Source: Pedobacter sp. SYSU D00535 (GTDB lineage: Bacteria > Bacteroidota > Bacteroidia > Sphingobacteriales > Sphingobacteriaceae). From it: a stretch of 64,000 bases of DNA. Shown here piece after piece: positions 47,615 to 60,615 of this stretch; positions within the stretch are counted from its first letter, which is position 1; each line of letters opens with the position of its first letter. The notes under the pieces are model-generated. The model did not search any database, was not told the origin of the DNA, and saw nothing but the letters and a program-made list of their open reading frames with translations. Both the position numbers and the translations under genes were made by a program. The stretch is from positions 124,001 through 188,000 of the forward strand of contig NZ_JAFEWD010000008.1 of NCBI RefSeq assembly GCF_017355855.1, given 5' to 3'.

Positions 47615-48481
47615 ATGAGGGCAGAGTTACGAAAGGTAAGTTCGGGCGCAACGGAGTCTTTCAGCGTGCGAAGAGACCTGGTTCCGGATATCAATAACCG
47701 CTGGCATTACCATGATGTGGTCGAGTTGATTTGTTTTAAGGAAGGCAGTGGAACCCATTTCATCGGCGACAACATTCGCAGGTTCCACAACAACGACGTT
47801 GTGCTTATTGGCTCCAATCTTCCGCATTTTACCCGCTTTGATTCTTCTTACTTTACCCAGGTGAATCCAAATATGCTGGTGTTGCATTTTCGGGAAGATT
47901 TTTGGGGGAACACCTTCTTAAATATCCCCGAGAATGCGCCTGTCAAGTCGCTGCTTGAGCGAAGCAGAAGAGGTATTCTGATTAATGGGGAAGCAGGAAA
48001 GAAAGTTGCGCACCTGATGGAGGAAATGCTCGAAGCAAGTCCGCAGTCGCGGTTGCTGATGTTGATGCAGATCCTGTATGCTATTGCTGAAGGGAAAGCG
48101 GAAGAACGTTTGCTGTCGTCGATGGGTTTCTCAGCAGAGTACAGCGAGAGCGAACAAGACCGGATTTCGGCCATCTACGACTATACATTAAACCATTTCC
48201 AGCGTAAAATTTATCTGGAAGAAATTGCTGAAGTGGCGAAGCTGGCGCCAGAATCTTTCTGCCGCTATTTCAAATCCAGAATGAAAAAAACATACTCGGA
48301 CTTTGTTCTGGAAATCCGGGTAGGGCACGCTTGTAAATTGCTGATTGAAGATAATTTCAACCTGAAGCAAATATGTTACGAAAGTGGATTCAATAATGGC
48401 GTGACATTTCACCGCTACTTCAAGCGTTACACGGGCATGTCGCCTACCAATTACCGCAAGGAATTTGGCTTGGGCAGGTAG
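47615..48481 (+). CDS. AraC-family transcriptional regulator
   Basis: A 288-residue regulator. The N-terminal part is a cupin-like sugar-sensing domain (RWHYHDVVELICFKEGSGTHFIGDN...VVLIGSNLPHF), the C-terminal part an AraC helix-turn-helix pair (YLEEIAEVAKLAPESFCRYFKSRMKKTYSDFV and NLKQICYESGFNNGVTFHRYFKRYTGMSPTNYRKE). It is divergent from the uronate pair and is the likely activator or repressor of those genes. TATTTTAG at 47588 may be its -7 element. Confidence 0.92.
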   Translation: MRAELRKVSSGATESFSVRRDLVPDINNRWHYHDVVELICFKEGSGTHFIGDNIRRFHNNDVVLIGSNLPHFTRFDSSYFTQVNPNMLVLHFREDFWGNTFLNIPENAPVKSLLERSRRGILINGEAGKKVAHLMEEMLEASPQSRLLMLMQILYAIAEGKAEERLLSSMGFSAEYSESEQDRISAIYDYTLNHFQRKIYLEEIAEVAKLAPESFCRYFKSRMKKTYSDFVLEIRVGHACKLLIEDNFNLKQICYESGFNNGVTFHRYFKRYTGMSPTNYRKEFGLGR

Positions 48482-49362: not shown

Positions 49363-49749
49363 CAGGGAAAAGCTTTTAGTTTTTCATGCCCTTTCGTTTT
49401 GTCATCTTTTCGATTTACTCTCAAACCTGATATTGTCTTTTTTTGAAAGTTAAACCATATCTTGAAAATCACTCGCCTTTAAAATTTTAGCCCCCAAATT
49501 AACATTAGCTACCTGTTTTTTGAAGAATACGGTGCGGGCCAGGACGTAGTTTTACACTGCGAGCCTGGAGGATGAGTCGCGGGCAGCGGCACCGGAAGAG
49601 AACAAGTGTGCACAACTAATCAATTAAAGATACAGTGGAAGCGGAGTCGATGGACCTGGTAGCGCAAGAAATTGCTCAGGTTTCTCACGGAGGGGAATGC
49701 GATTTCAATAGCCAATAAAATCTATAACCAATTTCTAAACTATTAAACC
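49363..49749 (+). promoter_or_regulatory. promoter region of the mannan-locus permease
   Basis: This 387-bp gap holds the shared mannan-locus element TTAACATT (49499-49506) and its -7-like box TAGTTTTA (49547-49554), leaving a leader of about 190 nt before the ATG. No gene is seen. Confidence 0.65.
49499..49554 (+). promoter_or_regulatory. shared mannan-locus operator/promoter, copy 1
   Basis: TTAACATT at 49499, a degenerate second copy TGAAGAAT at 49521 (22 bp later) and TAGTTTTA at 49547, 46 bp after AACATT. The same layout recurs at 52080, 54509 and 60387. Confidence 0.65.
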
Positions 49750-51024
49750 ATGATGAATACAGTCGAGGCAGCTCCGGAAAAAGAGCTTATCCTTCAGTCA
49801 AAGCCTGCTTTTACTGATAAAAAATATCTGACCACCCTGATCTTCGTAACCTCACTGTTCATGTTCTGGGGGATAGCCATCACCATGGGCGATATCCTTA
49901 ATCGACATTTTCAACACACGCTAAGTCTGTCCAAGGCGCAGTCGGCCTTTGTACAGTTCGCAATCTTTGGTGCCTATTTCGTTATGGGAATACCGGCTGG
50001 CCTGTTTATGAAGCGTTACGGCTATAAGAATGGGGTAATATTGGGACTATCACTATTTGCACTTGGAGCTTTCCTTTTTGTTCCAGCTGCTAATGCAGCC
50101 TCATTTTCTTTCTTTGGGGTGGCTCTGTTCATTTTGGGCTGTGGACTGTCTACTCTGGAGACGGTAGCTCATCCCTTCATGGCCTCGCTGGGAGACCAGC
50201 GGACGAGTGACCAGCGCGTCAATTTTGCCCAAGCATTCAATGCGTTAGGTACTATTATAGGGCCGGCCATTGGAACCTATTTCCTGCTACGACACAATAC
50301 CAGCGGTAGTACCGATTTAGGCTCTGTAAAAAGTCTTTATATGGCAATTGGTGGAACTATTGCGTTAATCGCCATAGGTTTTTCTTTTGTTAAAGTTCCT
50401 CCACTTGGCAATTATGTTCAGCTTCCAGAGCAGGAGCAAGGTGGACACAGCTTCGCAAACTATACCCAGAAGAGGCTTTTTCAGCATCGGCATTTTAGAT
50501 GGGCAATTGCGGCGCAGTTTTTTAATGTAGCGGCTCAGGGTGGAATCTGGGCGTTCTTTATCAACTATGGACATGAAGAAATGGGCTTTCCGGAAGACAC
50601 GGCAGGAAGCTATATGATCATCTTTATGAGCCTGATGCTGGGTGGCAGGTTTGTGGGAACTTTCTTAATGCGCTATACAAAGCCTTACACCTTGTTGGCT
50701 GCCTTTGCTTTTGCAAATATTCTCATGTGCATGCTCGTAGCACAAGGGGCCGGCTGGATTTCTTTTGCCGCTTTGCTCGCTACCAATTTCTTTATCAGTA
50801 TCATGTTTCCTACCATCTACAGTCTGGGTATTAAAAACCTGGGAAATCAAACTCAGCAGGCTTCTTCTTTCATTTCGATGGGTGTGGTGGGAGGCGCGCT
50901 ATTCCCCCTGCTAATGGGTAAGGCCGCCGACATGTTCAACATAGCAGAGGCTTTCTACTTACCTATTATCTGCTATACCGTGATATTCCTATTTGGATTT
51001 AAATTTTATAAAGTAGTTGATTAA
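49750..51024 (+). CDS. FucP-type sugar:H+ symporter (MFS)
   Basis: A 424-residue inner-membrane permease with 12 predicted helices. LIFVTSLFMFWGIAITMGDILNRHF and KAQSAFVQFAIFGAYFVMGIPAGLFMKRYGYK are the FucP-family N-terminal segments; ALFILGCGLSTLETVAHPFMASLG is the conserved fourth/fifth helix. It heads the mannan locus, shares its operator motif with the GH26 and susC promoters, and therefore probably imports mannose or short beta-manno-oligosaccharides. The ROK-like gene follows 109 bp downstream. Confidence 0.9.
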   Translation: MMNTVEAAPEKELILQSKPAFTDKKYLTTLIFVTSLFMFWGIAITMGDILNRHFQHTLSLSKAQSAFVQFAIFGAYFVMGIPAGLFMKRYGYKNGVILGLSLFALGAFLFVPAANAASFSFFGVALFILGCGLSTLETVAHPFMASLGDQRTSDQRVNFAQAFNALGTIIGPAIGTYFLLRHNTSGSTDLGSVKSLYMAIGGTIALIAIGFSFVKVPPLGNYVQLPEQEQGGHSFANYTQKRLFQHRHFRWAIAAQFFNVAAQGGIWAFFINYGHEEMGFPEDTAGSYMIIFMSLMLGGRFVGTFLMRYTKPYTLLAAFAFANILMCMLVAQGAGWISFAALLATNFFISIMFPTIYSLGIKNLGNQTQQASSFISMGVVGGALFPLLMGKAADMFNIAEAFYLPIICYTVIFLFGFKFYKVVD

Positions 51025-51132
51025 GAGGCAGCCCCGGGCTAAAGGATAATAGCAAGAGTTTCCTCTTGTTTAAAGGACCCGCCGTTTAGCGATAAAAGTA
51101 AGATTGAATAATGTTAGGAAAGGGAAATAATT

Positions 51133-51999
51133 ATGATGAAAGCAGTTATTGGAGCTATTCTAGAAGACTCGTTCTTGTCTTCAGGCTATGTAAACCTCGA
51201 GGCAAGGGAAATAGTACAGTCCACTGTACGACGGGAAAAGATAAATCCCAGAGGCACGAAGCCGGAGTTGTTGGAAACTCTAACAAAAACGTTAAAAGAA
51301 GTATTTGACAACGTTCCTGATCCACAGGAACTGGTAGTAGGTCTCGGTATTCTTGGCCCTTGTGACTACGAATCAGGTGTTTTTCAGGGGAATGATTTAG
51401 CCCGTTTCGGTAGTTTGCACGACGTCGATTTGAAGCAGGAAATATCCTCTGCCTTGAATATTCCGAAATCCTCTGTTCGCTTGGTGAACGATTCTGTGTG
51501 CTTCCTTCGGGGAGAAGTGTTTGGCGGCGCTGTCCGATCTTACTCTAAATCAATTGGAATCACATTAGGGGCAGGACTAGGCTCGGCGATTTATGAGTTC
51601 AATAAGGTTCGGGATGCTAACTACTTCAGGACTCCCTTTAAATCGGGGACTGCAGAAGATCTTTTGTCAGTCGCCTGGCTTACGCGGCAGTTTTATGAGC
51701 GAACAGGTATCCCGGCACGCACTATTCTTGAAATGAAGATGCACGATCGTCCGGCAGTTCTCGAGGAAGTATTTGATCTCTTCGGGCACAATCTGGCAGA
51801 GTTTTTAATCCAGGTGAGCCTTGATGAAAGGCCGGAGGCAATTATTGTAGGTGGTCACATGCAGGCTTCTAACAAGCTGTTCTTCGACAAAGTTATCACC
51901 AAAGTGCATGCAGCCGGTATTTCTATTCCGATTCTTCGGACTTATCTCGGTGAGAAAGCAACGATCCTTGGGGCTGCATCAATCTGGAGCGAGAGTTGA
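51133..51999 (+). CDS. ROK-family protein lacking the usual ATP phosphate loop
   Basis: A 288-residue protein of the ROK (repressor/ORF/kinase) superfamily. The sugar-binding half keeps GLGILGPCD, the catalytic-type Asp in VRLVNDSVCFLRGE and the nucleotide motif ITLGAGLGSAI. However, the N-terminal DxGGT phosphate loop is replaced (MMKAVIGAILEDSFLSSG), and the ExxGH and CxCG zinc motif of classical ROK kinases is not found. It may be a divergent kinase, or an inactive sugar-binding regulator. It lies between the permease and the first mannanase, so mannose is the likely ligand. Confidence 0.8.
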   Translation: MMKAVIGAILEDSFLSSGYVNLEAREIVQSTVRREKINPRGTKPELLETLTKTLKEVFDNVPDPQELVVGLGILGPCDYESGVFQGNDLARFGSLHDVDLKQEISSALNIPKSSVRLVNDSVCFLRGEVFGGAVRSYSKSIGITLGAGLGSAIYEFNKVRDANYFRTPFKSGTAEDLLSVAWLTRQFYERTGIPARTILEMKMHDRPAVLEEVFDLFGHNLAEFLIQVSLDERPEAIIVGGHMQASNKLFFDKVITKVHAAGISIPILRTYLGEKATILGAASIWSES

Positions 52000-52079
52000 A
52001 GGCTACCCGGGTTTTATTAAGTTAGGAATCGAAGAGCATAGCGTAGTTTTCTAAAGCAAATCGCCATGTTCGTTCTAAT

Positions 52080-52135
52080 TTAACATTTGAAGCCCCATTT
52101 CTAACCAAATACTTCTGCAAGCAGGAGCAATTTTG
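52080..52135 (+). promoter_or_regulatory. shared mannan-locus operator/promoter, copy 2
   Basis: TTAACATT at 52080, second half-site TAACCAAA at 52102 and a -7-like box CAATTTTG at 52128-52135, again 46 bp after AACATT; the first GH26 gene starts at 52219. Confidence 0.6.
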
Positions 52136-52218
52136 TATCGCTAACCGGAGGCGACCTTTTGCATTACCGATAAGCTGAACAAGTGTGAACCTCGACGAAC
52201 CATAAAGCGACGGATGGT

Positions 52219-53301
52219 ATGACTAAAATTAAATTCAGAATATTGCTGCTTTTTGCTACCGTGACTTTCAGTCTCGTTTTCTGCCGGAAGGGGGAAAAAG
52301 GCGATACGAAGTTGGCCGGAACAATGCCGCCGCCAGCGCCAACTAATAAATTTTCAATTTTAAATAAGGCATTGGTCACTCAGAATTCCATCTACGAAGC
52401 GAATGCCCTTTACCAGTTCTTGCTGCAGAACTACGGAAAAAAAATAGTTTCAGGAGTAATGACGCTGGATAGCTTTGACGAAACCAATTGGCTTAAAGCG
52501 AATACAGGAAAAGAACCGGCTATTATCGGGCTCGATTTTATGCATTGCTACCAGGGATATACCTGGTACGATAATGAGCGGCCAATAAAGGATGCAAAAA
52601 TTTATTGGGAGAAAAAGGGAATTCCCGCCATCACCTGGCATTGGAGAGACCCTTCTAATCTTACAGAAAATTTCTACACTGCAGGAACCAGCTTTGACGT
52701 TTCCAGGATAAACAATCCGGATTCAGACGAGTATAAAGCAATGATCAGGGATATAGATGCTGTGTCAGGTCTGTTGAAAAAGCTTCAGGAACAGCAGGTG
52801 CCAGTTATTTGGCGGCCACTTCATGAGGCAGCAGGGGGCTGGTTCTGGTGGGGAGCCAAAGGAGCGCAACCTTGCAAGAAGCTATATCAGTTGATGTACG
52901 ATCGTATGGTGAATCATCATGGATTGAGGAACCTGATTTGGGTATGGACGCACGAGCCAAATGATAACGCATGGTATCCCGGTGATGAATACGTGGACAT
53001 TGTAGGAAGAGACAATTATAAGCAAGGGGACCATTCTTCGCAGTTGGCTCAATTCAACGCAATGCATACCCTTTATTCTTCTAAAAAAATGGTGACACTG
53101 AGTGAATGTGGGTCGATGCCCGACGTGGACAACCTGGTAAAGGATGGAGCTGCCTGGTCGTGGTTTATGCCCTGGTATGGTGAATTCACGCGAAAGGTAG
53201 ACGGAAAATACGAGCACAATAGTTTAGATTTATGGAAGAAGATGATGGCAAGCGATTATGTTATTACATTGGATGAAATGCCTTCGTTGAAGCGTCCTTA
53301 G
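52219..53301 (+). CDS. GH26 beta-mannanase, lipoprotein
   Basis: A 360-residue lipoprotein (signal to SLVFC, Cys22) with a GH26 barrel. The acid/base is Glu203 in IWRPLHEAAGGWFWW and the nucleophile Glu296 in LSECGS; both are intact. VWTHEPNDNAWYPGDEYVDIVGRDNY is a further family segment. GH26 enzymes cleave internal or terminal beta-1,4-mannosidic bonds. The lipid anchor suggests attachment to the outer membrane, possibly on the cell surface, where it would open the polymer. The second GH26 gene follows 50 bp downstream on the same strand. Confidence 0.93.
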   Translation: MTKIKFRILLLFATVTFSLVFCRKGEKGDTKLAGTMPPPAPTNKFSILNKALVTQNSIYEANALYQFLLQNYGKKIVSGVMTLDSFDETNWLKANTGKEPAIIGLDFMHCYQGYTWYDNERPIKDAKIYWEKKGIPAITWHWRDPSNLTENFYTAGTSFDVSRINNPDSDEYKAMIRDIDAVSGLLKKLQEQQVPVIWRPLHEAAGGWFWWGAKGAQPCKKLYQLMYDRMVNHHGLRNLIWVWTHEPNDNAWYPGDEYVDIVGRDNYKQGDHSSQLAQFNAMHTLYSSKKMVTLSECGSMPDVDNLVKDGAAWSWFMPWYGEFTRKVDGKYEHNSLDLWKKMMASDYVITLDEMPSLKRP

Positions 53302-53351
53302 AAATTTTGAACATACCAATAAATACACATACTTAAAAGGTACCGGAGGGG

Positions 53352-54479
53352 ATGAGGAAGTTTTATTTTCTACTTTTTACAGCAATGCTAGTCATTGCGC
53401 AAGTAAAGGCGCAGTCAGCAGGGTTAATTGATGGCAATGCTACGCCGGAGACAAAGGCATTATTCAGCAATCTGTACCATTTATCCAAAAAGCACACCTT
53501 GTTCGGTCATCAACATGCTACCGAATATGGGCACGGCTGGATGGGCGATTGGGATCGGTCAGATGTTAAGTCTGTCGTAGGCTCGCACCCGGCAGTAATT
53601 GGTGTTGATATTTCCGGACTAAGCGGATTGCCAGAGCAGGTGATCCGTTCCAATGAGGATAAACTTCGGAAGAACATAGTGGACACTTACCACCGTGGCG
53701 GGGTTACCACCATCGCCTGGCATTTTTCGAACCCTTTGTCCGGGGGCGGTTTTTACTGGAAGGATTCAGTTTCAGTGCCAGCTGTGAAGTACCTTATTCC
53801 AGGTGGAAAGGAACATCAGAAGTATAAACAAATTTTAAAGGGTATCGCCGACTGGGCAAAGACGCTGCGGGCTTCCGATGGTACGCTTGTTCCGGTTATT
53901 TTCAGGCCTTTTCATGAGTTCGATGGCGACTGGTTTTGGTGGGGCAAGGCGCATTGCACAGCAGAAGAATTTAAGTCGCTTTGGAAGTTTACAGTCTCTT
54001 ACCTGAGGGATGAGCAGCAGGTACATAACTTTATTTATGCCTTTTCTCCGGACAGCAAGTTTACTAACGAGCAGGAGTATTTAGAAAGGTACCCGGGGAA
54101 CGAATGGGTAGATATGCTCGGGACAGATAATTATGGAGATATGGGCAGGGATGCCTACCGGCTGGATCTTGCTGCTGCCAAGCTGAAGATTGTATCGAAA
54201 CTTGCGCGGAGGAACAAAAAACTAGCGGCCTTTACAGAAACCGGATTAGAGTCGATTCCAAACAGCACCTGGTGGACAGACGTGTTGTTGAAGGTGATGA
54301 AAAAGAGTCGCGGTCGCATAGCCTACGTGTTAGTTTGGAGGAACGATTCCAGAAGTCCTACCCACTACTATGCTCCCTTTCCGGGACATCCCAGTACTGC
54401 TGACTTCAAGAAGTTTTACAACCACCCCTATACGTTGTTTGAGAAAGATCTGAAGGATATTTATAAAAAGCAGCTTTAA
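53352..54479 (+). CDS. GH26 beta-mannanase, exported, no lipobox
   Basis: A 375-residue exported protein (signal peptide MRKFYFLLFTAMLVIAQVKAQ, signal-peptidase-I type). Catalytic Glu189 (IFRPFHEFDGDWFWW) and Glu296 (FTETGLES) are present. KHTLFGHQHATEYGHG and GVDISGLSGLPEQV are typical of the Bacteroidota GH26 group acting on manno-oligosaccharides. Without a lipid anchor it is probably periplasmic. It is cotranscribed with the preceding GH26 gene (50 bp gap); an AGCAGCTT-TA-AGCTGCT hairpin straddles its stop codon at about 54470-54486. Confidence 0.92.
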   Translation: MRKFYFLLFTAMLVIAQVKAQSAGLIDGNATPETKALFSNLYHLSKKHTLFGHQHATEYGHGWMGDWDRSDVKSVVGSHPAVIGVDISGLSGLPEQVIRSNEDKLRKNIVDTYHRGGVTTIAWHFSNPLSGGGFYWKDSVSVPAVKYLIPGGKEHQKYKQILKGIADWAKTLRASDGTLVPVIFRPFHEFDGDWFWWGKAHCTAEEFKSLWKFTVSYLRDEQQVHNFIYAFSPDSKFTNEQEYLERYPGNEWVDMLGTDNYGDMGRDAYRLDLAAAKLKIVSKLARRNKKLAAFTETGLESIPNSTWWTDVLLKVMKKSRGRIAYVLVWRNDSRSPTHYYAPFPGHPSTADFKKFYNHPYTLFEKDLKDIYKKQL

Positions 54480-54508
54480 GCTGCTCTGATGGCGTTTTAG
54501 CCAATTGT

Positions 54509-54564
54509 TTAACATTCCGGACCTGATTATTGAACATTTCTTTCCGCTGTGCAAGTTACCTTCA
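54509..54564 (+). promoter_or_regulatory. shared mannan-locus operator/promoter, copy 3
   Basis: TTAACATT at 54509, second copy TGAACATT at 54531 (the best second half-site, 22 bp later) and TACCTTCA at 54557-54564, 46 bp after AACATT. The GH26 start is at 54654. Confidence 0.6.
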
Positions 54565-54653
54565 CCATTGAATTAACTAATGAACCTCAGCTTCCCGTAT
54601 TAACATCGAACGGTATTAGGTGAAGCGAGATAGTGGTATAGATACGTCCAATT

Positions 54654-55784
54654 ATGAATTTAGCACGCGCGGTATTATCATGCCTGATGGCAAGCTTTTT
54701 CTTTGCCTCTGCCCAGACGCTTACAGATCCACTTGCTACAAGTGAGACTTTAAACCTTTATGCAAAACTGTCAAAGTTATCCGGTAAAGCTTATCTGGTA
54801 GGCCATCAGGATGCTTTAGCCTACGGTGTGAAGTGGAAATATGAGCCCGGTAGATCGGATGTGAAAGACGTGACCGATGACTATCCGGGCTTATACGGAT
54901 GGGAAATCGGGGGGATAGAGAACGCGGCGGCGCTGAATCTGGATAGCGTACCCTTTGACGAGATGCGGAGCTTTATAAAACAAGGTTATGAGCGCGGAGG
55001 AGTAATTACAATTAGCTGGCATGGCGACAATCCGCTTACAGGTAAATCAGCCTGGGATGCTGCTCCGGGATCGGTGGCGGCCGTTCTTCCGGGACAAACC
55101 AAACATGCGGTTTTTGTGAAGCAACTGGACGCTGTAGCCGACTTTTTGGGCCGCTTGAAGGGAGATCAGGGAGAGCCGATACCAGTTTTGTTCCGTCCTT
55201 TTCACGAGTTAACAGGTGGCTGGTTTTGGTGGGGAACAAAAGGAAATACTGCAGAGGAGTACAAAGCTTTATTTCGTTTTACGGTCGACTATTTACGCAA
55301 TAAGAGACAGCTGCATAACCTGATTATGGTGTATAATACCAGCAACGGACTGAAATCTAAAGACAATTTTTTGGAGCGTTATCCCGGTGATGAATATGTG
55401 GATTTGATCTCTTTCGACGCTTACCAGCGAGGAGAACCCGAACTAAGTAAGTCTTTTGCTAAAAGCCTCGATCATGATCTTTCGATTCTCGGAAAAGTCG
55501 CAAAGGAGCGTAAAAAGATTCCGGCGGTAGGAGAGCTGGGCTACAATCAGATTCCCGATACCCGATGGTTCAGTAAAACACTGCATCCCGTATTTAAAAA
55601 GCATCAAATGGCTTATGTGCTTTTCTGGCGGAATGCCGGTTTTAAAGCAAAGGAAAATGAGATGGAGTACTATGTGCCTTACATTGGTCATCCAGCCGCT
55701 CCGGACTTTAGGACTTACTACCAGGCGCCTGAAACGTTGTTTCAAAAAGAGGCTGCCCACCTGAAACTATATCAGAAGGACTAG
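54654..55784 (+). CDS. GH26 beta-mannanase, exported, paralogue of the preceding gene
   Basis: A 376-residue exported GH26 enzyme (signal peptide MNLARAVLSCLMASFFFASAQ). Catalytic Glu185 (LFRPFHELTGGWFWW) and Glu294 (VGELGYNQIPD) are present. KAYLVGHQDALAYGVKW and IVMVYN-type barrel strands parallel those of the protein at 53352, so the two are paralogues that may differ in chain-length preference. It has its own copy of the shared operator/promoter, separate from the GH26 pair before it. Confidence 0.92.
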   Translation: MNLARAVLSCLMASFFFASAQTLTDPLATSETLNLYAKLSKLSGKAYLVGHQDALAYGVKWKYEPGRSDVKDVTDDYPGLYGWEIGGIENAAALNLDSVPFDEMRSFIKQGYERGGVITISWHGDNPLTGKSAWDAAPGSVAAVLPGQTKHAVFVKQLDAVADFLGRLKGDQGEPIPVLFRPFHELTGGWFWWGTKGNTAEEYKALFRFTVDYLRNKRQLHNLIMVYNTSNGLKSKDNFLERYPGDEYVDLISFDAYQRGEPELSKSFAKSLDHDLSILGKVAKERKKIPAVGELGYNQIPDTRWFSKTLHPVFKKHQMAYVLFWRNAGFKAKENEMEYYVPYIGHPAAPDFRTYYQAPETLFQKEAAHLKLYQKD

Positions 55785-56080
55785 CCAGAGTTGGAAGGTT
55801 AACATAAGTGCCCCTGATAATTAGCAATTGGTGCGGAAGATAAATGGGGCCTTTGTTTCCTGCCAAAAGAAAAATAGGTATTTTGTGTCGGCCTTAAACG
55901 TTGTGTTGCTACCTGATATAAACATTTAACCAATTGTAAATCAGCGATCTTTTAGTTGTGTTGATCGGTCTGTCCTTGCGCTCAGTTTCAATGATAAAGT
56001 AATTAGGAGCTTTTGCTGGCAACCGTAAAAATTAAAAGGCGTATAACATCGAATTATCCAAATCGGCTAAGGCTGAACGT

Positions 56081-59000
56081 ATGGAATTAAGGAGCGTATT
56101 TGTATTCATTCTGCTGATTGTTTTTAAGGCAGTTTCTGCTCAGGTTGGGAACTACAAATTTTCCCATCTGACGGTGAAAGACGGACTGCCCCACAACCAG
56201 ATTAACTGTGTTTTCAAGGACGATAAGGGCTTCCTTTGGTTTGGTACGATGGCAGGGTTAGCCCGTTTTGACGGTTATGCTTTTAAGGTTTACCAGCATA
56301 AACTGAATGATTCCTCCACGATTGGCGACAATGATGTGGTGAGTATTACGCAGGGACCTGGCAACAAACTGTGGGTGCAAAGCCGGGCGGGCATGCAGGT
56401 TTATGATCCTAAAAAGGACCGGTTTTATCGGAGGGTTTGGGACGAACTCCGGCAAATGAACATTAATGAGAATTCCGTCCGAAAAGTGTTCCGAGACAAG
56501 AAGGGATCTTTCTGGTTTATCCCCGAACATGCCGGACTCTATCATTATAACCCGAAATCTAACAGATCCTCTTATTTTCAGCACCAACTTAAGAACAGTA
56601 AAAGCCTGGCCGCCTCCCCCATTATCGATTTGGCCGAAGGGCCCAATGGAGAGATTTGGGTGATCCACGCTGATGGTTTACTAGAGCAGATTGAGCCCGT
56701 AAGTAAAACTGTTGTTAAACGGATCCGGGGGCTAGCGAATGTGATGGGCGCTGAAAACGATACTTACCGCCTTTTCGTGGATAAGCAGGGCTGGGTGTGG
56801 ATATACAACACGCTTGTTTCTGGCGGGATGTTCTACGTGGACCCTGTAAAAGGTCAGCTGGTGAACATTAATAAAAATTCTGTCGGCTGGAGGCTCAATT
56901 CAAACATCATTTCCGGAATTGTTCAGGTTAAGAACAATGAGATCTGGATTGCCACGGATCATGGCGGAATAAATATTATTGATAAGGCTAGTCCGAGGGT
57001 GAAGTATATCGCCAATAATGAGGACAGTGATAAGGATGTAATCGGGCAGAACAACCTCTCTTCCATTTACTATGACAACCTGGGAACGGTTTGGATTGGG
57101 ACCTACAGACGGGGAATCAGCTATTATCACCCGGGTATTGTTAAATTCCCGCTTATAAAACCTTCCTCGGCTTCCAATAGCCTCGTTTATAACGATGTCA
57201 ACTACCTCGCTGAGGATAAGAAGGGGAATCTCTGGATTGCAACAAATGGCAAGGGCATCGCTTATTTTGACCGTCAACGCAATACTTTCAAAACCTACCG
57301 GCATGATCCGGGGAACGCCAACAGCTTATCGCATGATGCTATTGTTAGTCTGTATGTCGATAAGGGCGGTAAGCTATGGGTTGGAACTTACTCGGGAGGC
57401 TTGGACTGTTTTGACGGACAAAGATTTTCGCACTACAGGAATATTCCCAATGATCCGACCAGTCTTAGTGATAACCGGGTAGCTGCTATTTACGAAGATT
57501 CCTCTGACCGTTTCTGGGTGCTAACGATGGGAGGCGGTATTAACCTCTTTGACCGAAGCAGCAATAAGTTCAAGCGTCTTACAGTTCAGTCGAAGGATCT
57601 GAAATCGAACTACGTATTCAGCATTCTCGAAGATTCAAAGAAGAACCTTTGGTTTGGCACCGGTTATGGCCTGGCTATCTTACCTTATAAATCAACCCGC
57701 TTCAAATCCATAATTAATACCGCCGATAGTCCTGAAGGCTTAATCAACAACACTGTGAACTGCCTGGTAGAAGATAAAAAAGGCAATATCCTGATCGGCA
57801 CCAGGGAAGGTTTGAGCTTGTATAACCCCCGTAGCCAGAAGTTTAAAAATTTCACCACGGCGGACGGATTGCCCGATAACAATATCCAGGGGATGGAGAT
57901 GGACGCTGCAGGATATTTCTGGTTGAGCACCTCCAATGGCCTGTCAAAAGTGGCAGTTAGGTATGAACCGGAAGTAGTATTAGAATGCAAAAACTTTGAC
58001 GAGAGCGATGGTTTGCAGGGAAAGGAGTTCAACAGGAACGCCTCTTTGAAATTGAAAAGCGGGGAGCTGGCTTTTGGCGGGGCGGACGGCTTCAATCTGT
58101 TTGATCCCGCCAAAGTGAAAACCTTTAACACTCCCGCACGCTTGTTTATTACCGGTTTCCAATTATTCAATAGACCGGTACAGGTGGATGAGCGGATCGA
58201 CGGCAGTGTCTTGCTGAGTACCTCCATTACCGAAACAAAGAGTGTTACCCTGAAGAGTTACCAAAACGTTTTTACAATCGAATTTGCTTCCCTCAACTAT
58301 ATCGAACCACACAAGGTGAAACATCAGTATATGATGGAAGGCTTTGATAAGGGCTGGATCAATGCCGATAACAGCGTGCGCAAGGCCACATATACCAACC
58401 TTGACGCCGGCGACTATGTGTTTAAGGTCAGAGCTTCTAATCCTGATGGACGCTGGACAGCGAAGCCGGTAGAACTTCATATCCGTATTTTACCTCCCTT
58501 CTATAAATCCAACTTCGCTTATTTTATTTATCTCCTGATGATTGCCGGCGGCTTGTATCTGCTGCGGCAGCGCGGGATCGAGAAGCTGAAAAGACAGTTT
58601 GCGGCCGAGCAGGAGAAAAAAGAGGTGCAACGTTTACTGGAGCAGGAAAAACTGGAAGTGCAGCGGGTCATTGAGCAGGAGCGGATGGAAGCGATGCGCT
58701 TCAGAGAACTGGATGCTTTAAAGATCAAATTCCTCACGAATATCAGTCACGAGTTCCGAACACCTCTTTCCCTGATCCTGGCCCCGATTGACAAGCTGCT
58801 GAAACAATTGGAAAATAGTCAGGCGATGGAACAGGTGCTCGTCATCCAGCGCAATGCTCGGCGACTGCTGAGTTTGGTGAACCAGCTTCTGGATTTTCGC
58901 CGGATGGAACTTAACGAGTTGAAACTTCAAAAGCGGACTGACAACATCGTGTCGTTTGTGAAGGAGATAGCGCTATCGTTCAAAGATATCGCTGAACAGA

Positions 59001-60274
59001 AAAATATTCAGCTATCGTTCAATTCCTCCAGTGAGGAGGTTTACACTGCGTTTGACCATGACAAGGTAGAACGTATTCTCTTTAATCTGATCTCCAACGC
59101 GTTCAAGTTTACCCTGGAGAATGGGAAGGTAAATGTTTCTCTGGATTTAACCGCAGGCAGGGACCAGGTCACAATAAAGGTTCGGGACACGGGGATCGGT
59201 ATTGCCGCAGATAAACAGGAAAAGATCTTTGATAGCTTCTTCCAGAGCGATGTTCCCGATGCTATTATTAACCAGGGTAGCGGAATCGGATTATCCATTG
59301 CCAAGGAATTTGCAAAGCTGCACGGCGGGGATATTCAGCTGGAAAGCGAACTCAATTTCGGCAGTTGCTTTACGGTGTTTCTACCGGTAGAAGAGCTGTC
59401 GGTGGAAGAATCATCAGACGATTTTATCGAAGAAATAATCACTGAAGGGAAAACAGCTGATGCGGTTTTGCAACCTGCTGATGTGCCACTCTCGGCCAAA
59501 AAACTTACTGTCCTTATCCTCGAAGACGATGTTGATTTTAGGTTTTACCTGAAAGATAACCTGAAAGAAGAATACAATGTCATAGAAGCAGGTAATGGCA
59601 AGGATGGCTGGCAAAAAGCGCTGTTCCACCATCCTAATATTATTGTTAGCGATATATCGATGCCGGAGATGGACGGCATCGAATTCTGTAAAAAGGTTAA
59701 AAATGACAGTCGGACTTTCCATATTCCCATTATTCTGCTGACTGCTGCCGGAGGAGAGGAACAACAGATTAAGGGTTTAGGCTCTGGCGCTAACGATTAC
59801 ATGACCAAGCCCTTCAGCTTTGAAATCCTGCATACGAAGATCCGGAATATGATCAGGCAACAGGAATCTTTCAAAAAGACGTATCAGAAACAGGTGGAAA
59901 TTAAGCCCTTGGATGTAGAGGTGGAGTCACCGGATGAAAAGTTTTTGCAGGATGTGATCAAGGAGTTGGAGAAAAACATGTCTAATTCTAATTTCTCTGT
60001 AGATGAGTTAAGCAGCTTGCTTTTTGTAAGCCGCGTAACCTTGTACAAACGAATTCTAAATCTGACTGGTAAAACTCCTTTAGAGTTTATCAAATCATAC
60101 CGTCTTAACCGGGCCGTTCAACTTCTTGAGCGAGGCGACTTTACTATTTCGCAGATTTGCTACAAAGTAGGTTTTAAAACTTCTAAAAACTTCGTTAAAT
60201 CGTTCAAAGCGGAATTTGGAGTTATTCCATCCAAGTATGTTGAGAACAGAGAGCTTTTAGATACTACCGACTAA
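56081..60274 (+). CDS. hybrid two-component system regulator (HTCS), AraC output
   Basis: A 1397-residue single-polypeptide sensor-regulator. After a signal peptide come two periplasmic seven-bladed Reg_prop propellers (about 25-680, recurring 'DDKGFLWFGT..GLARFDG' repeats), a Y_Y_Y domain (about 690-790) and one membrane helix (FAYFIYLLMIAGGLYLL). A coiled coil rich in Gln/Glu leads into the histidine kinase (His890 in NISHEFRTPLS; DTGIGIAADKQEKIFDSFFQ), a receiver (LILEDDVDF, Asp1191 in VSDISMPEMDG) and an AraC-type HTH pair (about 1290-1390). It probably senses manno-oligosaccharides and activates the four promoters carrying TTAACATT. Confidence 0.95.
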   Translation: MELRSVFVFILLIVFKAVSAQVGNYKFSHLTVKDGLPHNQINCVFKDDKGFLWFGTMAGLARFDGYAFKVYQHKLNDSSTIGDNDVVSITQGPGNKLWVQSRAGMQVYDPKKDRFYRRVWDELRQMNINENSVRKVFRDKKGSFWFIPEHAGLYHYNPKSNRSSYFQHQLKNSKSLAASPIIDLAEGPNGEIWVIHADGLLEQIEPVSKTVVKRIRGLANVMGAENDTYRLFVDKQGWVWIYNTLVSGGMFYVDPVKGQLVNINKNSVGWRLNSNIISGIVQVKNNEIWIATDHGGINIIDKASPRVKYIANNEDSDKDVIGQNNLSSIYYDNLGTVWIGTYRRGISYYHPGIVKFPLIKPSSASNSLVYNDVNYLAEDKKGNLWIATNGKGIAYFDRQRNTFKTYRHDPGNANSLSHDAIVSLYVDKGGKLWVGTYSGGLDCFDGQRFSHYRNIPNDPTSLSDNRVAAIYEDSSDRFWVLTMGGGINLFDRSSNKFKRLTVQSKDLKSNYVFSILEDSKKNLWFGTGYGLAILPYKSTRFKSIINTADSPEGLINNTVNCLVEDKKGNILIGTREGLSLYNPRSQKFKNFTTADGLPDNNIQGMEMDAAGYFWLSTSNGLSKVAVRYEPEVVLECKNFDESDGLQGKEFNRNASLKLKSGELAFGGADGFNLFDPAKVKTFNTPARLFITGFQLFNRPVQVDERIDGSVLLSTSITETKSVTLKSYQNVFTIEFASLNYIEPHKVKHQYMMEGFDKGWINADNSVRKATYTNLDAGDYVFKVRASNPDGRWTAKPVELHIRILPPFYKSNFAYFIYLLMIAGGLYLLRQRGIEKLKRQFAAEQEKKEVQRLLEQEKLEVQRVIEQERMEAMRFRELDALKIKFLTNISHEFRTPLSLILAPIDKLLKQLENSQAMEQVLVIQRNARRLLSLVNQLLDFRRMELNELKLQKRTDNIVSFVKEIALSFKDIAEQKNIQLSFNSSSEEVYTAFDHDKVERILFNLISNAFKFTLENGKVNVSLDLTAGRDQVTIKVRDTGIGIAADKQEKIFDSFFQSDVPDAIINQGSGIGLSIAKEFAKLHGGDIQLESELNFGSCFTVFLPVEELSVEESSDDFIEEIITEGKTADAVLQPADVPLSAKKLTVLILEDDVDFRFYLKDNLKEEYNVIEAGNGKDGWQKALFHHPNIIVSDISMPEMDGIEFCKKVKNDSRTFHIPIILLTAAGGEEQQIKGLGSGANDYMTKPFSFEILHTKIRNMIRQQESFKKTYQKQVEIKPLDVEVESPDEKFLQDVIKELEKNMSNSNFSVDELSSLLFVSRVTLYKRILNLTGKTPLEFIKSYRLNRAVQLLERGDFTISQICYKVGFKTSKNFVKSFKAEFGVIPSKYVENRELLDTTD

Positions 60275-60615
60275 TATCAGTATGATGATTTTTTAACACA
60301 TAACCCCGGGGAAGAGATGTAGACAGATCAGACTTTGTTCCAGTGTTTTTAGTATAAATCGTTGATTTTCAATCCATTTTCAGCTATTAACATTTCGGCA
60401 CCTTTTTTTTAGCAATGCGATTTCGGAGGTAGCATAGTTTTACTTTCGAAAACCAATTACAACTCTAAAAAAGGCGAACCTTATACCGAAACTAACCAGC
60501 TTTTGTAATCAGCTTTTTAGGAGTTGCGAACTAACAGAATTATCAACCATTTAAAGCAATTAACGCGTGAGCACTACAATCTTTTTTGACCCAATTATCA
60601 CTCCAAAAAACTAAG
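60275..60615 (+). promoter_or_regulatory. promoter region of the mannan-locus susC
   Basis: This gap of about 340 bp between the HTCS gene and susC contains the fourth copy of the shared operator (60387-60442) and a leader of about 170 nt. No terminator is visible behind the HTCS gene and no other gene is seen. Confidence 0.65.
60387..60442 (+). promoter_or_regulatory. shared mannan-locus operator/promoter, copy 4
   Basis: TTAACATT at 60387, second half-site TTAGCAAT at 60409 and TAGTTTTA at 60435-60442, 46 bp after AACATT. Its -7 box is identical to that of copy 1. Confidence 0.65.

Follow-up and report, generated by a model that had tools for sequence, protein, structure and literature searches.

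In Bacteroidota, HTCSs form a major family of regulators for glycan utilization; few of their operators have been mapped. Class II activation by AraC-family proteins (AraC at I1-I2, MarA) relies on activators with two HTHs per monomer; AraC occupies tandem half-sites about 21 bp apart, with the proximal site over the -35 position. For B. thetaiotaomicron, the accessible part of Ravcheev et al. 2013 (PMC3878776) describes the HTCS operators that precede PUL units as direct repeats spaced by about 21 bp, infers a tandem dimer on one face of the DNA, and reports that motif similarity tracks the HTH tree. For HTCS_Man it gives two 16-bp sites separated by 5 bp, and this part of the paper reports no fixed distance to the -7 box and no link to HTH2. 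DNA binding by receiver-AraC fragments of BT4124 and BT4663 has been studied by EMSA on susCD promoters (mBio 2024, PMC11253607); the proposal in the accessible sections of that study is that the receiver keeps the HTH1 recognition helix buried until phosphorylation.

The mannan locus and its repeated element

The window analyzed here, a stretch of 64,000 nt from Pedobacter sp. SYSU D00535, codes by Pfam for an MFS permease, a ROK protein, three GH26 proteins, an HTCS and SusC. Past the window, the same contig continues with SusD, a TIG protein, a GH5-like protein, GH3, GH27 and a CE2 esterase, and further on with an SSF symporter, GH130, an AGE-type epimerase, a divergent GH5, a SASA esterase and GH2. 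From the established roles of these families, we take this to be a beta-(galacto/gluco)mannan utilization locus. The HTCS at 56081 scores above the Pfam cut-off for Reg_prop, Y_Y_Y, HisKA, HATPase_c, Response_reg and HTH_18, and its His and Asp motifs are present. Alignment identifies its HTH2 as YKVGFKTSKNF, and its nearest solved relative by sequence is 12aw, an HTCS receiver-HTH protein. An AraC-family gene at 47615 (AraC_binding cupin plus HTH_18) adjoins mannonate dehydratase. The features are as follows, in window coordinates unless prefixed L003; position x of L003 equals window coordinate x + 63,500.

49499..49528, + strand: predicted operator before MFS permease (49750) and ROK protein (51133); TTAACATT AGCTACCTGTTTTT TGAAGAAT
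49547..49554, + strand: -7 box TAGTTTTA, 48 nt past the operator start at 49499
52080..52109, + strand: predicted operator before the GH26 pair (52219, 53352); TTAACATT TGAAGCCCCATTTC TAACCAAA
52128..52135, + strand: -7-like box CAATTTTG
54509..54538, + strand: predicted operator before the third GH26 (54654); TTAACATT CCGGACCTGATTAT TGAACATT
54557..54564, + strand: -7-like box TACCTTCA
55799..55828, + strand: predicted operator before the HTCS gene; TTAACATA AGTGCCCCTGATAA TTAGCAAT
56081..60274, + strand: HTCS gene (periplasmic propeller, Y_Y_Y, HisKA, HATPase, receiver, AraC-type HTH)
60362..60373, + strand: extra element TTGATTTTCAAT, 13 nt ahead of the operator before susC
60387..60416, + strand: predicted operator before susC (60586; likely ATG 60616); TTAACATT TCGGCACCTTTTTT TTAGCAAT
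60435..60442, + strand: -7 box TAGTTTTA of the susC promoter
L003:9606, beyond the window: site before the SSF symporter/GH130/epimerase operon, found with the pattern from the first four sites
L003:15347, beyond the window: site before the acetylesterase (SASA)/GH2 pair, found with the same pattern
L003:15306, - strand, beyond the window: site before the divergent GH5, found with a matrix

An earlier note on this DNA had reported four copies of TTAACATT (49499, 52080, 54509 and 60387), each followed 22 bp on by a degenerate copy (the last block of each operator above) and by a -7-like box; coordinates and distances are exactly as it gave them. At all four sites, the -7 box starts 48 nt past the first T of TTAACATT, which is 46 nt past the first A of AACATT. 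The Bacteroidota primary-sigma -7 box is TAnnTTTG (PMC7366714). This consensus is met at locus sites by TAGTTTTA (twice), TAGTTTTG and TATTTTTA, and with one or two mismatches by CAATTTTG, CAAATTTG and TACCTTCA. The boxes at 52080 and 54509 are poor, and the one at 55799 (GGCCTTTG, shifted one base later) is poorer still; the 48-nt distance to the -7 box applies to every locus site except 55799. When the aligned sites were inspected, no TTTG was seen at -33. This position is held by the second half-site, whose box A overlaps it 26 nt before the -7 box, and the missing -33 TTTG is what one expects of an activator-dependent promoter.

Judging from complete double half-sites in the susC promoters of relatives, the half-site is 16 bp long, TTAACATTTGnnnCCC, with box A (AACATT) followed about one turn later by box B (CC). 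The partly conserved CC that the earlier note had seen between the two copies belongs to the first half-site, as its box B. In relatives whose operators start 59 nt before the -7 box, both half-sites are complete, as in TTAACATTTGCATACC-N6-TAAACATTTGCATACC. In the 48-nt class, the upstream half-site is complete, and the promoter-proximal one is degenerate, with box A and no box B. The extra element before the susC operator resembles TTGATAATCAAT, and many 48-nt relatives have TTGATAATCAAT or a close form of it at the equivalent place ahead of their susC operators; the element is possibly the site of a second factor or a third half-site.

By itself, TTAACATT is ordinary, with 7 occurrences in the window against 3.4 expected. 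The full arrangement occurs 4 times, whereas 200 dinucleotide shuffles of the window average 0.005 and never contain more than 1. Allowing up to 3 mismatches, the composite motif has 6 matches in the 4.89-Mb genome, all 6 in the mannan locus, with zero matches on the reverse strand and zero for a backwards control pattern. Scanning for the 30-bp operator alone, with the -7 box left off, gives 7 matches, again all in this locus, and control patterns have zero. As a sufficient signature, TTAACATT-N40-TAnnTTTR was discarded: one of its 4 exact genome matches lies in unrelated DNA, and with up to one mismatch it has 17, including unrelated loci such as C12:263680. Since this short pattern is not unique, a usable signature has to take in the second half-site along with the CC box. 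A genome-wide count had been suggested as a check on the element; the composite and the operator are confined to the locus, but the looser pattern, which omits the second half-site, also turns up elsewhere. These scans also brought up another recurring element, roughly TTAAC.TTA...TAAT, 48 nt before -7 boxes at G000:C12:263680, C12:269221, C13:176932 and C20:69852. Our guess is that it is another regulator's box, perhaps PhoB-like.

The fixed distance to the -7 box, and a second box A that overlaps -33, could also mean that the element belongs to the core promoter of sugar-controlled genes and is no specific operator. We give this explanation almost no credence, as the strict scans found no match outside the locus, no other HTCS locus of this genome has the element apart from a second mannan locus, and its sequence and distance covary with the HTH2 of the HTCS (see below).

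Extent of the regulon and its probable regulator

The earlier note had drawn the regulon as four units. All four carry the site, but the count was too low: it missed 55799, L003:9606, L003:15347 and L003:15306. The 55799 site is also found with the pattern built from the first four sites, and L003:15347 and L003:15306 flank the divergent GH5/acetylesterase-GH2 promoter, one on each side. The predicted regulon therefore comprises at least eight sites, the HTCS gene included. Through the 55799 site, the HTCS gene is probably autoregulated; a site precedes the HTCS gene in the present locus (C18), in the second mannan locus (C20) and in G001, which suggests that autoregulation is conserved.

Orthologous GH26 loci in three other genomes keep both motif and distance. 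G001, with an HTCS that is 68% identical, has six sites at 48 nt; G283 and G259 (HTCS about 60%) have two sites each. The second GH26 mannan locus of the same genome, on contig C20 (L079, G000:C20:124001-144000), encodes a paralogous HTCS that is 65% identical and contains five sites at 48-49 nt, four of them with TTAACATTT. An automated search for shared repeats in the promoters of the other HTCS loci of this genome returned mostly noise (14-18 of 34 matches), and C20 alone yielded a clear family (24 of 34). Two HTCS genes, L084 and L085 (G000:C11 near 20672 and C12 near 701806), have identical match scores and the same internal TAA, and are apparently a recent duplication or an assembly copy.

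This second locus raises the question of whether its HTCS might be the main or joint regulator of the present sites. The two proteins have nearly the same recognition helices (HTH1 helix SRVTLYKR identical; HTH2 KTARNF in C20 vs KTSKNF in C18) and could bind the same sites, and the C20 promoters have half-sites of their own, TTAACATTTG, 48-49 nt before their -7 boxes, with the same first half-site as the present locus. Box B and the second half-site differ, however (TAAATGAT, TAAACGAT and TTATCAAA in C20 vs TNAGCAAT here), so that no C20 site passes the strict genome scans. We consider control by the C20 protein unlikely. Cross-regulation between the two loci is possible on the basis of these similarities. 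The earlier note's description of the regulon as local may be too narrow, since C20 shares the first half-site.

A second candidate is the AraC-family gene at 47615, which lies within 2 kb of the first site. AraC-family proteins likewise read direct repeats of about 21 bp. In G001, however, an 82%-identical ortholog lies about 600 kb from the mannan locus, which nevertheless keeps six sites, and G004 has 48-nt sites beside its HTCS yet no match to this AraC protein at E 1e-30. In dozens of genomes the motif goes with the HTCS, and it varies with the HTH2 of that protein. With the gene unlinked in G001 and absent in G004, we rejected it as the main regulator; that the sites belong to it is highly improbable.

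We conclude that the HTCS encoded at 56081 very probably has the 30-bp element as its operator. The confinement of the motif to the locus, the same distance in orthologous loci and the covariation with HTH2 all point to this protein, and they support the earlier proposal of an HTCS operator read by an AraC-type dimer. The sensor would bind a mannan-derived ligand in the periplasm, whereupon the HTCS would autophosphorylate and hand the phosphate to its own receiver domain. By analogy with the family, the phosphorylated receiver would release the AraC-type domain, which would then bind DNA as a tandem dimer, each domain reading one 16-bp half-site, presumably with HTH1 on box A (AACATT) and HTH2 on box B (CCC). 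Since the second box A lies at the -33 position, a placement like that of the proximal site in AraC class II activation, the bound dimer would touch RNA polymerase in place of the missing -33 contact. One switch would thereby serve all units of the locus together with the HTCS gene, and the 55799 site would add positive feedback.

HTH2 sequence and the distance to the -7 box

The distance between operator and -7 box follows the HTH2 of the linked HTCS. For the 80 related HTCSs whose susC promoter has a detectable site, a basic HTH2 (K..GFK) goes with 48-49 nt (29/29), NNPK with 59 nt (23/23), and the rest with 57-58 nt (28/28). The 48-nt class is that of the window, 59 nt that of complete repeats, and 57-58 nt that of 21-bp repeats; C-terminal HTH sequences divide along the same classes. 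Box B also follows HTH2, being GCCCC with the basic type, TACC with NNPK and TAT in most others. Tabulating basic HTH2 against a 48/49-nt site for 103 HTCSs, 22 of which (about a fifth) had no site under the criteria used, gave 29, 1, 0 and 73; the 1 is a locus whose 48-nt site sits one gene further on. The Fisher value of 9e-25 for this rule ignores the kinship of the loci. The 48-nt loci are partly near kin, so the counts are not independent, and mapped onto a kinase plus receiver tree the 48-nt class takes five changes, of which two or more fall on well-supported branches, so that only a few independent events lie behind the rule. In the final scoring the best site was chosen among the allowed distances; unselected histograms give the same split.

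The rule was also fixed in advance, as GFK only, and held when scored on 40 newly added loci, with the one exception given below. The sole GFK protein had its site at 48 nt. Of the 39 non-GFK loci, 13 had sites at 57 nt and 14 at 59 nt (a few loci both), and one at 48 nt. In this last locus, a strict exception to the GFK rule, HTH2 reads YRVGFRSHKYF, with R replacing both lysines, and the class was afterwards widened to K or R. Since the set held only two basic HTCSs, the 57-59 side of the rule is better tested than the 48 side.

On balance, we favor the view that HTH2 in this HTCS clade sets both the box-B sequence that is read and the required distance between operator and promoter. A basic, proline-free HTH2 would place the operator exactly one turn closer (48 vs 59 nt) with a half-used proximal half-site, giving discrete geometries that are predictable from sequence. 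A limited literature search found no description of this rule. Among distant Bacteroidota HTCSs (about 27-41% identity), almost no recognizable TTAACATT sites were found. In many relatives, most from one orthologous group, TAATCAAT occurs about 21 bp before the operator; we leave open whether it is a third tandem half-site upstream. Downstream of an HTCS in a genome of another family, L303 contains a TAT.ATTT-type 22-bp repeat with C-rich boxes, 59 nt before TACTTTAG, so the 59-nt geometry may extend beyond the family.

Comparison with described operators and PULs

With operator, promoter distance and matching helix readable from sequence, regulons could be predicted for many unstudied PULs. 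The rule also raises the question of why there are two promoter positions one turn apart, and how a change in HTH2 allows the shift.

HTCS direct-repeat operators are already known in Bacteroides, and the putative mannan operator is not new in kind. Like the operators in the accessible part of PMC3878776, it is a direct repeat, here of 22 bp, found at eight sites before PUL units and kept in G001, G283, G259 and C20. HTCS_Man, as described there, concerns alpha-mannan in gut Bacteroides, whereas the present locus concerns beta-mannan (GH26, GH130, GH27, GH5), and the present operator differs from that of HTCS_Man in its 22-bp repeat and truncated second half-site. BT4124 and BT4663 belong to a different clade from the present HTCS, and the accessible sections of PMC11253607 contain no operator geometry. 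The beta-mannan PULs of Bacteroides ovatus and Muricauda (PMC5217682, PMC9860051) share the substrate and enzyme types (GH26, and in B. ovatus also alpha-galactosidase) with this locus, and the available portion of the B. ovatus paper mentions hybrid two-component systems. Both PULs differ from the present locus in gene content and taxon, and operators are not a topic of the accessible parts of these papers. Finally, unlike AraC and MarA, the present system works with a Bacteroidota sigma factor (-7/-33) and has its regulator fused to a membrane kinase.
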